Below, piece by piece: positions 23,263 to 27,296 of a DNA stretch of 64,000 bases; the stretch's first letter is position 1, and every line of letters starts with the position of its first letter. The notes beneath the pieces were generated by a model. It was not told the origin of the DNA, did not search any database, and was given only the letters and a program-made list of their open reading frames with translations. The DNA is taken from NCBI GenBank assembly GCA_013287135.1, contig JABDEK010000016.1:1-64000 (forward strand). The letters are read 5' to 3'. The translations under genes were made by a program, and so were the position numbers. The DNA is from Acidobacteriota bacterium (GTDB lineage: Bacteria > Acidobacteriota > Terriglobia > Acidiferrales > UBA7541).

Positions 23263-23442
23263 GAAAATAGGTGGTTTGGTCGCAATTCGGCTTTTGGACG
23301 CGAGGGCGGCGCTAACAGCCAACGGTCAATGTTTTACGGTTGGTTTTCGGTTCTTACGGGCCATAGAGACTGCACAGACCTCGCCGCCATTTTATGATTC
23401 GCGGTCGTCCGCGGTTAGACTTTAACCGGAGAGCTCAGCCCG

Positions 23443-23918
23443 ATGATACAAAAGCTTCTGCTCGCCTGTCTGGTGCTTTTGCTGCCTCCGAAGCCAAATT
23501 CCGGACAAAGCACGCTGCAATCACACACCTATCGCCTGGAAGATTTAACTTCCCAGAAAGAGGCCAACGCGACTTTTGGCCCTATCCTCCACGGTATGAC
23601 GGGCAACGGCGTTCATCTGCATGTTCACGAAGTCTTTTCTGCCGTCGGGAAGCTCGCCGCAGCACGCCCATCATCACCAGCAGGAAGAGATGTCCTGATC
23701 AGCGAAGGCGAAGTGCCCTAGGGCCAGGCTTGGCGGCGTTTATCGCTCCGGGCGACCAGCACCAGATCGCAAACGTGGGAACGCTGCCGGCGCAATACTT
23801 TGAGATTATCTCGATCCGCCACACCAGTACGGCGCGGGTATCGGCTCAGCTACCGATCGAGGAAAGCGCGCAGGCGAGCATAACCGGAGCGGCTAACGGG
23901 GAGTTGAACGCCGTTTGA
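23443..23918 (+). pseudogene. Decayed secreted cupin-domain gene
   Basis: A start with a good signal peptide (MIQKLLLACLVLLLPP) leads into a cupin-like N-terminal segment and HGMTGNGVHLHVHEVF. The metal-binding cupin motif then continues in another frame, LPSGSSPQHAHHHQQEEM, after one extra T. It returns to the first frame for LISEGEV, hits a stop at 23719-23721, and resumes in a third frame as LGPGLAAFIAPGDQHQIANVG and PAQYFEIISI. At least three frame changes and a shortage of about a dozen residues between EGEV and GLAAFI show a pseudogene rather than a single read error. The tail overlaps the response-regulator gene. Confidence 0.75.
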
Positions 23919-24617
23919 CAGCACCGCGACGTGCGTATCTTTTGCGTAAGGCTCGACCTTGACCACGCGCTCCAGGTTCACGATGTAGGAGCGGTGAATG
24001 CGCAGAAACCGCGACGGATCGAGCGCGGATTCGAGGCTTGAAATCGTTTGCTGCTTCAGATGTTTTTTACCTTCGGTTGCCAGTGCCACGTAGTCGTCCT
24101 GCGCTTCCACGTAATCCAGTTTTGCGATCGGGATAATAAAGACGCGCGTGCCATCGCGCACAGCGATTCGATCGAGATGCTGCGAAGGCGGCCGCGCTGC
24201 CGCCGCAAGATCCGCGGGAGGCATTTCGGCATGCGCGGATTTTCCGGCGAGACCTTCTTTGGCCCGATTTAGAGCGGCTTCGAACCGGTCAACTCCGAAT
24301 GGTTTTAAAAGGTAATCCACCGCGTGGACTTCGAATGCTTTGATGGCGTAGCTGTCGAACGCAGTGACGAAGATCACGCGCAAATCGCTGCCAATCAGCT
24401 CGAGCACTTCAAAGCCATCGAGCTTCGGCATCTGTATATCGAGAAAAAGCAGTTCGGGCTTCAGTTCTGTAACGGATTTCACCGCTTCAAATCCGTTGGC
24501 GCATTCGGCCACCAGTTCGATTTCTGGATGCGCACTCAAAAACTCGCGAAGAACCTGGCGGGCGAGTTCTTCGTCGTCCACGATAACAGCGCGGATTTTG
24601 CTTCCTTCGCGGTTCAT
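23850..24617 (-). CDS. LytTR-family response regulator
   Basis: 255 residues. An N-terminal receiver domain has the acidic pair VDDEE, the phosphoacceptor Asp in LLFLDIQMPKLDG and the Lys of LLKPFG. After a linker, the C-terminal LytTR DNA-binding domain contains IDYVEAQDDYV-like text, SLESALDPSRFLRIHRSYIVNLERV and LPVSRSGYARLR. LytTR proteins bind pairs of direct repeats spaced about two helical turns apart and usually activate membrane or envelope genes. The ATG overlaps the stop of the sensor kinase gene by four bases (ATGA), so the two proteins are made together. Its 3' end runs into the decayed cupin gene on the other strand. Confidence 0.93.
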   Translation of the reverse strand: MNREGSKIRAVIVDDEELARQVLREFLSAHPEIELVAECANGFEAVKSVTELKPELLFLDIQMPKLDGFEVLELIGSDLRVIFVTAFDSYAIKAFEVHAVDYLLKPFGVDRFEAALNRAKEGLAGKSAHAEMPPADLAAAARPPSQHLDRIAVRDGTRVFIIPIAKLDYVEAQDDYVALATEGKKHLKQQTISSLESALDPSRFLRIHRSYIVNLERVVKVEPYAKDTHVAVLSNGVQLPVSRSGYARLRAFLDR

Positions 24618-25684
24618 GTGTTTTGCAACTTCCTTTCCGCCGGGAAGGTGAGCGCGACGCGGTATGATTCAGCCTCCGCTTTCACGGCGAAGCTGGCTCG
24701 GTTTCCGTAACGTGTTTGTAGCCGCTGCCGCACATTCGCGAGTCCGACTCCGTTTCTGCGCCGCGCGGGAGCTTCGGGATCGAACCGGTTTTCGACCACG
24801 ATGGACACCTCGCCATCGCGCGATTGAATGCTGAGGCGAATCCATCCGCCTTCCACCAGATTCGCAATACCGTGCACCACTGCGTTTTCTACCAAAGGTT
24901 GCAGCAGAAGCGGAGGCACCGGAACGTCCAGCGCGCTCTTGTCTATACTTTCTTCCATCTGGATCCGCGCGCCGAAACGCACTTTTTCCACTGCCAGGAA
25001 TGCGTGAATCAGCGAAAGTTCTTCCTCCAGCGGAATTGCGGTTTTCTCGCCGAGCCCGAGCGTGCGTCGAAGGAAATCTCCCAGAAGGATGCACATCTCG
25101 CGCGCTTTGGCCGAATCGGAAGTTGTGAGCGCACTGATGGAATTCAGGCTGTTAAAAAGAAAATGGGGATTTACCTGCGCTTTCAGCGCTTTCAACTCAG
25201 CATCGCGTGCCAGCACGCTGGCTTGCATTACGCGAGCCTCCGCATCGCGCGAGAGTTCCACCGCGATGATGATGTAGTAGAAGGTGACGGAAAGTAAGTA
25301 AAGCAAAAGGCCGGATCCGAAGATTATGGGAATTTCAGGCCGAAAGCGCCTGCTCAATCCCGCAAAAGCGGGCATTCTCGAAAGGCTGCTGGCCAAGCCT
25401 GCAGCGGCGAAGGCCCAGACGATGCTGGCGATCAAAGCAGCGGTTAGTTGTGTTGCGATCAGGCGCCCGAGACCAAATTTCTCAAGAGGGGTTCCGCGGC
25501 AAGAGTACCAGGAAGAAAGACAGATAAATGCGTAGACCAGCGACAAAGGAAAGGACAGGATCACCGCTTCTCGAACCGTAATTCCCCCTGGAATGGTAAG
25601 CAGGTAGGCCAACATTCCCGCAATCGGTATCCATGCGAGAAGGTACAGGGCGAGTCGGCGAATTTGGGAGAAGATCGGGTGCAT
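24614..25684 (-). CDS. LytS/YehU-type sensor histidine kinase
   Basis: 356 residues. The N-terminal half has four or five membrane helices with little periplasmic sequence. The His_kinase domain has the phosphoacceptor in KAQVNPHFLFNSLNSIS. The HATPase N-box is LLLQPLVENAVVHG and the G-box RNGVGLANVRQRL. This is the typical sensor partner of LytTR regulators. It is third in a four-gene operon after two membrane proteins, one LiaF-like. That context suggests monitoring of the cell envelope or membrane state. The ligand is unknown. Confidence 0.92.
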   Translation of the reverse strand: MHPIFSQIRRLALYLLAWIPIAGMLAYLLTIPGGITVREAVILSFPLSLVYAFICLSSWYSCRGTPLEKFGLGRLIATQLTAALIASIVWAFAAAGLASSLSRMPAFAGLSRRFRPEIPIIFGSGLLLYLLSVTFYYIIIAVELSRDAEARVMQASVLARDAELKALKAQVNPHFLFNSLNSISALTTSDSAKAREMCILLGDFLRRTLGLGEKTAIPLEEELSLIHAFLAVEKVRFGARIQMEESIDKSALDVPVPPLLLQPLVENAVVHGIANLVEGGWIRLSIQSRDGEVSIVVENRFDPEAPARRRNGVGLANVRQRLQTRYGNRASFAVKAEAESYRVALTFPAERKLQNT

Positions 25685-25692
25685 ACGATTTC

Positions 25693-26427
25693 TTAATTCT
25701 TTACAACCACGCCGCCCATGAACGCGATGCCTTTCACCACCAAATGCTGCCGGGGCGAAGAATCCGTGGGCGGAATCTGATTGGTCTCGTCAACGTACGC
25801 GCCCATAATTCCCATACCTTCGATCGAAACAATCCACGAAGAAGGGACTTTAATTTCACCGCCACCCATGACGGAGGTAGCGTCAATTACGGCTGCATCG
25901 CCTTCGATACTGGCTTGCCGCAAATCGATGTCGAAACCTCCGCAGATTGTCAGGATATTGCCGCCGCGAAAATTCTTACCGGTGAAACGGCGCTTGAATC
26001 CGCCCAGGATTGCGACCTGGTTAAAATCCGAATCCGTGGAACTGCCTCCTCCCCATCGGCTGATTCGCTCGCGCCAAGTTGCCACTTTTCCGGTTAGAGG
26101 ATTGGTATGCGGCGCGATCGCTTGCCACATCATCAAACCGCCGATTGCAATAATAAATAACGGCCAGATGGGGATGTGCGCGGCGCCGGAATAATCCAAA
26201 GTGAGAAGAATGCCGATGACCAGCAGAACGCCGCCCCACACACGCCGGCCGCCGCCCTGGAACAGGTATATCGTTCCAAATGTGATACACATTGTCGGCC
26301 AGAAATATTGAAAGACCTTTCCGGCATCCAGAACTCCTTGTTGGTCGAGCAGCAGCACCACACCCGCAGCGGCGACGAATAGCCCAAAAGCGAGGCTCCA
26401 TCCAGCGGACCTAGGCTTACAGGTCAC
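25693..26427 (-). CDS. LiaF-like membrane protein
   Basis: 244 residues: four hydrophobic helices in the first 105 residues, then a soluble domain with alternating short beta strands and Gly turns (LTICGGFDIDLRQASIEGDAAV, MGGGEIKVPSSW, GIAFMGGVVV), as in the C-terminal domain of LiaF and related cell-wall-active-antibiotic response proteins. LiaF acts as a negative regulator of a two-component system in Firmicutes. Here the two-component system downstream is of the LytS/LytTR kind, so a similar inhibitory role is an inference. Eight bases separate it from the kinase gene, and its start overlaps the upstream gene by 11 bases. Confidence 0.8.
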   Translation of the reverse strand: MTCKPRSAGWSLAFGLFVAAAGVVLLLDQQGVLDAGKVFQYFWPTMCITFGTIYLFQGGGRRVWGGVLLVIGILLTLDYSGAAHIPIWPLFIIAIGGLMMWQAIAPHTNPLTGKVATWRERISRWGGGSSTDSDFNQVAILGGFKRRFTGKNFRGGNILTICGGFDIDLRQASIEGDAAVIDATSVMGGGEIKVPSSWIVSIEGMGIMGAYVDETNQIPPTDSSPRQHLVVKGIAFMGGVVVKN

Positions 26428-26788
26428 GAGAACCTTCCTTGCGGTTGCCGGACAACCGGCGGGAATTGTTCTGGCGAGTGGCTAACATAATCGCCAAGCC
26501 GAGGCTCACCAGCAGCAGTGGCCAGAATCGTAGGAAGTCCTGCATAGCGGAGACATTCATGCGCAGCGAAAGGATATTCCAAATGTTCGACGCGAGCACG
26601 GAAAACAGCCAGGAATTGTCCAGCTGAGCATGTGCGGACGCGAGTTCAGCCATCTGGAATACGACGCCCACCAGAATTAGCACGATTGCCGCCGCTGAAA
26701 TTACCACCGACCCGCTTACCGAAGACCTCGACTGCTGATTCGCGTTTGTCATGCCCTCATCTCCCACCGAAACTTTGTTGCCGTTCAT
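26417..26788 (-). CDS. Small membrane protein, first gene of the LytS/LytTR operon
   Basis: 123 residues with two hydrophobic helices (VVISAAAIVLILVGVVFQM and FLRFWPLLLVSLGLAIML) joined by a loop containing SWLFSVLASNIWNILS. The second helix resembles the LiaF/DUF5668 helix FWPLLLI. The N-terminal 25 residues are polar. It is probably a relative or partner of the LiaF-like protein that follows. The overlap of 11 bases with that gene points to coupling. A pair of 13-base direct repeats lies 44-77 bases upstream of the ATG. Confidence 0.75.
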   Translation of the reverse strand: MNGNKVSVGDEGMTNANQQSRSSVSGSVVISAAAIVLILVGVVFQMAELASAHAQLDNSWLFSVLASNIWNILSLRMNVSAMQDFLRFWPLLLVSLGLAIMLATRQNNSRRLSGNRKEGSRDL

Positions 26789-26831
26789 GAGGCCAGATTA
26801 GAGTCAAACGCGGAGCAGGTCTCTAGCTTTT

Positions 26832-26865
26832 CGGCGAATGGCGGCGGGTTACCGGCGAATGGCGG
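26832..26865. promoter_or_regulatory. Direct repeats, candidate LytTR binding site
   Basis: Two copies of CGGCGAATGGCGG, at 26832-26844 and 26853-26865, spaced 21 bases start to start. Read on the minus strand the core is CCATTCGCC, which matches 7 of 9 positions of the AlgR-type LytTR half-site CCGTTCGTC. Two-turn spacing is characteristic of LytTR operators. They lie just upstream of the operon that encodes a LytTR regulator, which suggests autoregulation. Confidence 0.5.
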
Positions 26866-26939
26866 GATTGGGCGGGAAAGGCATTAGCCCTGCGAGCAAA
26901 AGGCTTCAAAGCAGGCCGAGCCAAGATACGTTTACGCGG

Positions 26940-27296
26940 CTATGACGAAAAGACCATGCCGAGCCAGAATGCCGCGATTAACAGGGCGGACAGCACGAGC
27001 AGTACGCGCATTCGTTTCTTGCGAACGGCAAAGAGAACTACAGCCAAGGCGCAAAGCAGGAAACCCAACTCCGGCCAGAACAGTCCGGATCCAAACGCGC
27101 TGCTCCATTCCCCAGCAGCATCCTGCATTAAGAACGAAGCGGACGAGGTTACAGCAGTGAGCAGAGCGCCCAACGCTCCGGCGAGCGCCAAGCCCTTGGC
27201 CCAATCGGGCAGCACCCAGTCTTTGCGTGCATCGCGCCAGTCAAGCCACGTCTCGACCACTACGACGCCAACAATAAGCATAACGAACAGCGCCAC
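26940..27296 (-). CDS. Small membrane protein, function unknown
   Basis: 118 residues from GTG 27296. There are four hydrophobic segments: the N-terminal ALFVMLIVGVVVVETWL, then LALAGALGALLTAV, ELGFLLCALAVVLFAV and LLVLSALLIAAFWLGMV. There are short charged loops. No conserved functional residue is recognisable. It is not overlapped with its neighbours: 151 bases separate it from the LytS operon start, so it may be transcribed separately. Confidence 0.6.
   Translation of the reverse strand: MALFVMLIVGVVVVETWLDWRDARKDWVLPDWAKGLALAGALGALLTAVTSSASFLMQDAAGEWSSAFGSGLFWPELGFLLCALAVVLFAVRKKRMRVLLVLSALLIAAFWLGMVFSS

Follow-up and report, generated by a model that had tools for sequence, protein, structure and literature searches.

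The general binding consensus of LytTR regulators is WMMGTTNRK, and the LiaFSR system of Bacillus subtilis has a narrow regulon that includes its own operon. The LytTR repeats described in PMC6193735 are 12 bp apart, and their distance to the -35 shows a strong bias to 10 bp. For hdrRM of Streptococcus mutans, the same paper gives positive autoregulation, shown by EMSA and reporters. Both paired LytTR repeats and the association of LytTR regulators with DUF2154/LiaF-like proteins are already in print (PMC6193735, PMC11237479).

The window, a 64-kb stretch of DNA from an Acidobacteriota bacterium, carries four minus-strand genes, A to D, which encode a small membrane protein, a LiaF-like protein, a LytS-type histidine kinase and a LytTR response regulator. 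A sequence-only reading had placed a LytTR-like operator directly upstream of this operon. The interpretation preferred here, which we hold at a probability of roughly 85% on comparisons of sequence, is that two direct repeats would form the operator of D, the operon's own LytTR regulator, in the geometry of an activator site, and that the operon would be self-activating. A literature search by title and abstract returned no account of this operator, or of a LiaF-LytS-LytTR operon, in Acidobacteriota or Bacteroidota; because no published account was found, the kinase-bearing LiaF-LytS-LytTR module with its cross-phylum operator is called a new variation.

The operon, its repeats and its predicted promoter

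Genes A to D overlap their neighbors or almost touch them. Gene A (26417–26788, minus strand) encodes a LiaI/LiaF-TM-like small membrane protein of 123 aa, counted from an ATG (26788) that coincides with the predicted start of transcription; its two Pfam matches are both sub-threshold, and an in-frame ATG at 26752, preceded by GGGAG, is an alternative start. Gene B (25693–26427, minus strand) encodes a LiaF-like protein with four predicted helices and a Toastrack/LiaF-like C-terminal beta domain. Its LiaF-TM match in Pfam is above the cut-off (42.4 bits), in agreement with the earlier assignment of a LiaF-like protein to the operon, and its LiaF-like_C match is just below (27.1 bits vs. a cut-off of 29). 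The AlphaFold model of B (mean pLDDT 81.6, pTM 0.57) combines four TM-type helices with a beta domain, the LiaF architecture of a 4-TM LiaF domain followed by a C-terminal Toastrack domain. Among solved structures the best match to this predicted fold, and the sole match at E≤0.001, is 4qrk (E=4.3e-4, with a TM-score of only 0.34–0.39), which is named as a Toastrack example in PMC11237479. A search of the PDB with the sequence of B gave no match.

Gene C (24614–25684, minus strand) encodes the LytS-type histidine kinase, with a His_kinase domain, NPHFLFN at residues 172–178 and N- and G-box motifs; HATPase_c scores below its Pfam cut-off (19.4 vs. 26.4). Gene D (23850–24617, minus strand) encodes the REC-LytTR response regulator, in which Pfam finds Response_reg and LytTR (E=1.2e-24) and a phosphoacceptor-type Asp60 lies within LDIQMP. 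At the level of motifs, the kinase histidine, the ATPase boxes and the regulator aspartate of a LytS/LytTR two-component system are all present, and phosphorylation of D by C is expected from them. The FLRIHRS of D is the counterpart of FFRCHNS in AgrA, a motif tied to DNA binding (PMC4227749), and the R, H, R and S of RIHRS are invariant in 22 aligned rows. A LytTR-domain regulator is encoded inside the operon that carries the putative operator. None of the four operon proteins has a Pfam match to PspA. After gene D, two plus-strand open reading frames (23443–23721 and 23394–23918) overlap in different frames and look, by eye, like pieces of one cupin-type gene.

Direct sequence comparison places CGGCGAATGGCGG at 26832–26844 and again at 26853–26865, a period of 21 bp from start to start, so that the two exact 13-bp repeats of the earlier reading stand. 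With up to three mismatches the pair occurs once in the 64-kb window, vs. 0 in 100 shuffles, and a scan of the 4.38-Mb genome assembly (about 79% complete), a check proposed in the earlier reading, finds this one pair only. When the 151-bp intergenic region was shuffled by mononucleotides 20000 times, an exact 13-mer direct repeat arose in 4 cases. The repeat pair exceeds chance expectation.

On the coding (minus) strand, each repeat reads as a half-site, CCGCCATTCGCCG. The distal half-site (26853–26865; 9-bp core CCATTCGCC at 26854–26862) is followed by GTAA, which is conserved in an alignment of 34 operators, and the proximal half-site (26832–26844; core at 26833–26841) is followed by a conserved A-rich stretch. 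The half-site agrees with the general LytTR consensus at 6/9 positions. The two cores are separated by 12 bp, within the LytTR format of repeats of about 9 bp that lie 11–13 bp apart, and the proximal core ends 9 bp before a -35-like hexamer, within the 4–11 bp described for LytTR regulatory systems (LRS); the two-turn spacing noted earlier is that of LytTR sites.

The earlier reading had also reported no good -35. A sigma-70 consensus scan indeed finds no promoter, but comparison of related loci reveals a degenerate one. The 13 window-type loci (the window, 11 genomes of its genus and G071) align over 78 columns without gaps. Within this alignment a weak -35-like hexamer, GAGACC (26818–26823, minus strand), contains a GAC (26819–26821) that is invariant in 13/13 loci. 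After a 17-bp spacer follows the predicted -10 hexamer, TAATCT (26795–26800, minus strand), in which T, A, C and T never vary; it stands exactly 31 bp downstream of the proximal half-site. In the 34 operators, TAnnnT occurs at exactly +31 from the proximal half-site in 30, at +32 in two and at +38 in one; it occurs at no other offset in the range scanned, +21 to +42, and +21 to +30 hold it in 0/34.

Two in-frame starts of gene A are kept in all 13 window-type loci. The first lies 6–7 bp past the -10 hexamer, a leaderless position, and the second, preceded by GGAG or GGGG, lies 36 bp later in 12 loci and 45 bp later in L039. The upstream codon could be a true leaderless start or could simply belong to a leader. 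A 118-aa membrane open reading frame on the same strand (26940–27296) precedes the operon in 12 of the 13 loci, the window included, and was not found beside L035; Pfam gives it only a sub-threshold DUF2231 match.

Conservation and specificity of the predicted operator among relatives

Conservation was assessed in 41 loci, the window and 40 relative loci with D orthologs, in which genes were mapped by tblastn. A leave-one-out position weight matrix scores 20–54 bits in 34 of the 41, with the first mapped A or B gene lying 62–683 bp downstream, and the runner-up within the same locus never exceeds 17.2 bits; because the seeds of the matrix had been chosen by motif across the whole locus, the informative part of this result is the position at the operon start. 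In two of the remaining loci the contig ends before the operon start (L038, L053), three have no co-directional B-C operon within the fetched stretch (L064, L066, L069), and in L067 (7.5 bits) and L071 (1.2 bits) the operator is weak or absent. The sequence-only reading named a lack of conservation of the repeats among the findings that would refute it; their recurrence in 34 of 41 loci removes that objection.

These results bear on the least probable of the rival readings, in which the repeats are a chance or mobile element, or part of a structured RNA leader. Short GC-rich repeats are common, and an inverted repeat with 73% complementarity lies nearby. However, the repeats are single copy in the assembly, the window contains no Rfam match, the predicted transcription start lies downstream of the repeats, which would leave them untranscribed, and the spacing to the -10 hexamer is exact to the base in 30 of 34 operators. 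Together with the conservation already found, this makes such an origin highly improbable.

Specificity was examined with R1, a 42-position sequence-only model built from the 34 operators. It replaced a relaxed dyad pattern (up to two mismatches) that was too loose in the window's own genome (50 matches vs. 21 for the reversed pattern). R1 was run on 20 genomes of the window's genus, with at most 150 candidates scored per genome. Fifteen have one site at E≤2e-6, and the next best in any of the 20 has E=0.0155. Fourteen of the 15 strong sites lie before gene A, and that of G015 sits where a contig ends, next to the gene preceding the operon; three of the 15 (G003, G009, G015) are outside the training set. 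As for the five genomes without a strong site, G005 and G016 have no orthologous D, G007 and G019 have a partial D, and the contig of G010 ends before the operon start. A look-alike in the window's genome (G000:C91:9065) was rejected because it lies inside a 1057-aa open reading frame.

Across 151 relatives, under stricter filters, R1 has a match at E≤0.01 in 56 genomes and more than one match in three. Operators of G038, G084 and G132 are further operon sites from outside the training set; the G132 site (30.3 bits) lies about 90–130 bp before B-C, whereas D is encoded about 2 kb away on the opposite strand. Matches in G028 and G029 were rejected because they overlap open reading frames (149 and 804 aa, respectively). 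Of the 49 genomes in which D is complete or partial, 9 have no site at E≤1e-3: D is partial in three (G007, G019, G136), the contig runs out ahead of the operon start in three (G010, G080, G147), the sites of G130 (20 bits) and G138 (13.8 bits) are weak, and G120 (L071) has none. Operator and D co-occur by Fisher's test (40 genomes with both, 9 with D only, 6 with operator only, 96 with neither; p=2e-21), to which little weight is given, as the training genomes are part of the test and G113 and G096 are scored as having both although their best sites are not at the D operon. In four of the six operator-only genomes (G003, G015, G060, G070) the contig ends within about 1.3 kb after the site; the other two are G028 and G029, whose matches were rejected. 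In G096 the site at the operon scores 16.9 bits and is exceeded by a match on a different contig. The sole site of G113 lies before an ABC transporter, away from D, and R1 finds nothing at E≤1 in the D locus of this genome (L177).

Two sites of this kind are candidates for a wider regulon, as judged by the model. One, in G059 (L158), scores 24.9 bits and lies 191 bp before a set of HlyD, ABC ATPase and MacB-like FtsX permease genes; the other, that of G113 (L161), scores 25.8 bits and lies 77 bp before a gene for a DrrA-like ABC ATPase and an open reading frame with ABC-2 permease and amidohydrolase domains. The hexamers at +31 are TAGAAA and CACACT, neither of which fits TAnnnT, and for this reason both sites are kept as candidates only.

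The predicted operator and its proposed regulator in other phyla

A profile search of named genomes with D yielded at least 80 loci, in Acidobacteriota, Bacteroidota, Ignavibacteriota, Burkholderiales and a few other groups. Among the 80 loci listed, B lies upstream on the strand of D in 67 and C in 77. R1 matches five of the listed loci at E≤1e-5 (L180, L182, L185 from Massilia, L188 and L179) and nine more weakly; L182, L185 and L188 are operon sites outside the training set, and L179 and L180 are probably already among the training genomes.

A simpler test used the half-site TTYRCCG, repeated twice at periods of 12–33, and covered 66 of 67 listed loci, with 350 bp taken at each operon start (L184 was too short); the half-site was selected after these same loci had been viewed, and the period was taken from the window. 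With at most one mismatch, the dyad occurs at period 21 in 37/50 Bacteroidota, 5/6 Burkholderiales, 4/8 Acidobacteriota and 1/2 other loci among those listed. Any other period tested is found in at most 4 of the 50 Bacteroidota loci, and at period 21 the two controls, the reverse strand and the interior of C, each give 0/50. With two mismatches allowed, period 21 accounts for 46 of the 50 vs. at most 12 for any other period; in other terms, 13 of these listed loci need at least two mismatches and 4 need more than two.

The promoter of the 37 listed Bacteroidota loci appears to be locked to the same step. TAnnTTTG, a type of box also given for Bacteroides operons (PMC6193735), lies 30–32 bp downstream of the dyad in 12 loci, 51–53 bp downstream, one period further, in 16, and in neither place in 9, against a background of 14 occurrences in 17848 bases. 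In the 51–53-bp class a weak third half-site is present at +42 (mean mismatch 2.5/7 vs. about 3.4–6.6 at unrelated positions). The 21-bp step and the weak third half-site suggest arrays in which two or three half-sites are kept in register with the promoter. In 15 genomes of other phyla the dyad is not confined to the operon, having 90 matches vs. 36 for the reversed pattern, operon sites included, and the claim of a single target is accordingly limited to the window's genus. In one Ignavibacteriales genome (G162, locus L200) the exact half-site dyad occurs 14 times vs. 0 for the reversed pattern, an excess that could stem from additional targets or from base composition alone.

A tree of 100 D proteins (78 of the 80 listed named loci and 22 relatives, including the window; quick method, midpoint root) separates 10 LiaF-less rows from the other 90 by a branch with SH-aLRT 100. 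The 90-row side holds all 65 LiaF-linked named loci, the 22 relatives and three rows in which B was not found. The period-21 dyad, within two mismatches, is absent from all 8 scannable loci of the 10 LiaF-less rows. By these comparisons the operator follows the LiaF-linked LytTR regulator clade.

This pattern also bears on whether D is the protein that binds. A regulator encoded elsewhere could occupy the repeats, with D as a passenger, and other LytTR response regulators are present in the genome (three matches at E≤1e-40 in G000, D included). Such an arrangement is nevertheless quite improbable: where genus genomes have a strong site, it lies at the D operon and nowhere else, and the motif follows the LiaF-linked D clade over phyla and is absent from the 8 LiaF-less relatives scanned. 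The proposal of a LytTR-like operator for the operon's own regulator is thereby strengthened as a prediction, the site being conserved with the operon over genera, families and phyla and tracking the D clade.

Proposed mechanism and comparison with known systems

In the proposed mechanism, the two repeats would be half-sites bound by a D dimer, both on one helix face, and C would presumably phosphorylate D. Bound immediately upstream of the weak -35, D would recruit RNA polymerase, and the operon would activate itself. B and A would most likely be membrane-located negative modulators or sensors of C, and positive feedback combined with LiaF-like brakes could produce a threshold switch. Phosphorylation, dimer binding and activation by D are inferred from known families. 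That B and A act as inhibitors is conjecture, as is envelope stress as the signal, suggested by LiaF/DUF2154 proteins in other envelope-stress systems; the coupling to envelope monitoring put forward in the sequence-only reading has the same standing. Since no second strong site was found in the window's genus, the system would act chiefly on A and B, which would also be its brake, and its regulon would be narrow like that of LiaFSR in B. subtilis.

The choice of activation over repression rests on the position of the repeats. Autorepressing response regulators exist, and bound D might instead block the promoter until phosphorylation frees it. This is unlikely, as the repeats lie entirely upstream of the weak -35 rather than over the -35 and -10 elements, like the activating LytTR sites of PMC6193735 and those of AgrA at P2 and P3. 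The module may be a self-contained membrane homeostat common to Acidobacteriota, Bacteroidota/Ignavibacteriota and Burkholderiales, in which the operon's own promoter would be the ancestral target and in some lineages the only strong one, the LiaF/LiaI-like proteins would be both brake and product, and the half-site TTYRCCG, the period of 21 and the 31-bp promoter distance would have been kept even as TAnnnT gave way to TAnnTTTG. The chances of this broader picture appear about even.

The predicted operator amounts to a precise DNA code for a widespread LiaF-LytS-LytTR system, by which promoters and further targets can be sought by sequence. That an operator is retained between phyla along with its promoter spacing is unusual, and it provides a clean example of co-evolution between regulator and site. 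Should A and B prove to be the only strong target, the function of the system must reside in the LiaF/LiaI-like proteins themselves.

Among described systems, the LRS of S. mutans (HdrRM, BrsRM) share with this locus the pairing of a LytTR regulator with a membrane protein, HdrM having a DUF2154, LiaF-like domain, as well as two 9-bp direct repeats, 12 bp apart and just upstream of the -35, and autoregulation, which is predicted here (PMC6193735). LRS as described there lack a kinase and a receiver domain, whereas this locus has both, in a LytS-type kinase and a REC-LytTR regulator; its repeats also differ in sequence. LiaFSR and VraTSR likewise combine a LiaF-TM and Toastrack protein with a two-component system in one operon (PMC11237479); their regulator is REC-HTH and their kinase LiaS-type, in contrast to LytTR and LytS-type here. 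The pairing of DNA-binding domain and membrane protein is matched by a Firmicutes LytTR beside Toastrack-LiaF-TM (CAL82154.1), presented in PMC11237479 as a gene neighborhood, with no operator described in that account. In Flavobacterium johnsoniae, mutations are tabulated in a LytTR regulator, FJOH_RS09515, or in the adjacent-number histidine kinase RS09520, with each of the five replicate columns holding one (PMC10197871). The present operon falls outside the kinase-less LRS, which have neither receiver nor kinase, by the Response_reg domain of D and the His_kinase domain of C.

To our knowledge, the AlgZ/AlgR and AgrA systems include no LiaF-like proteins; each has a LytTR domain in its regulator. 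The likeness to AlgR claimed by the sequence-only reading stands for the coding-strand core, in which CCATTCGCC is identical to the AlgR 9-mer CCGTTCGTC at 7/9 bases, but it does not extend to the arrangement, since AlgR sites need not come in pairs and may lie at a distance (PMC4064291). AgrA binds paired direct repeats upstream of P2 and P3 (PMC4227749), and its paired sites, like those of the LRS regulators, make the closer parallel.
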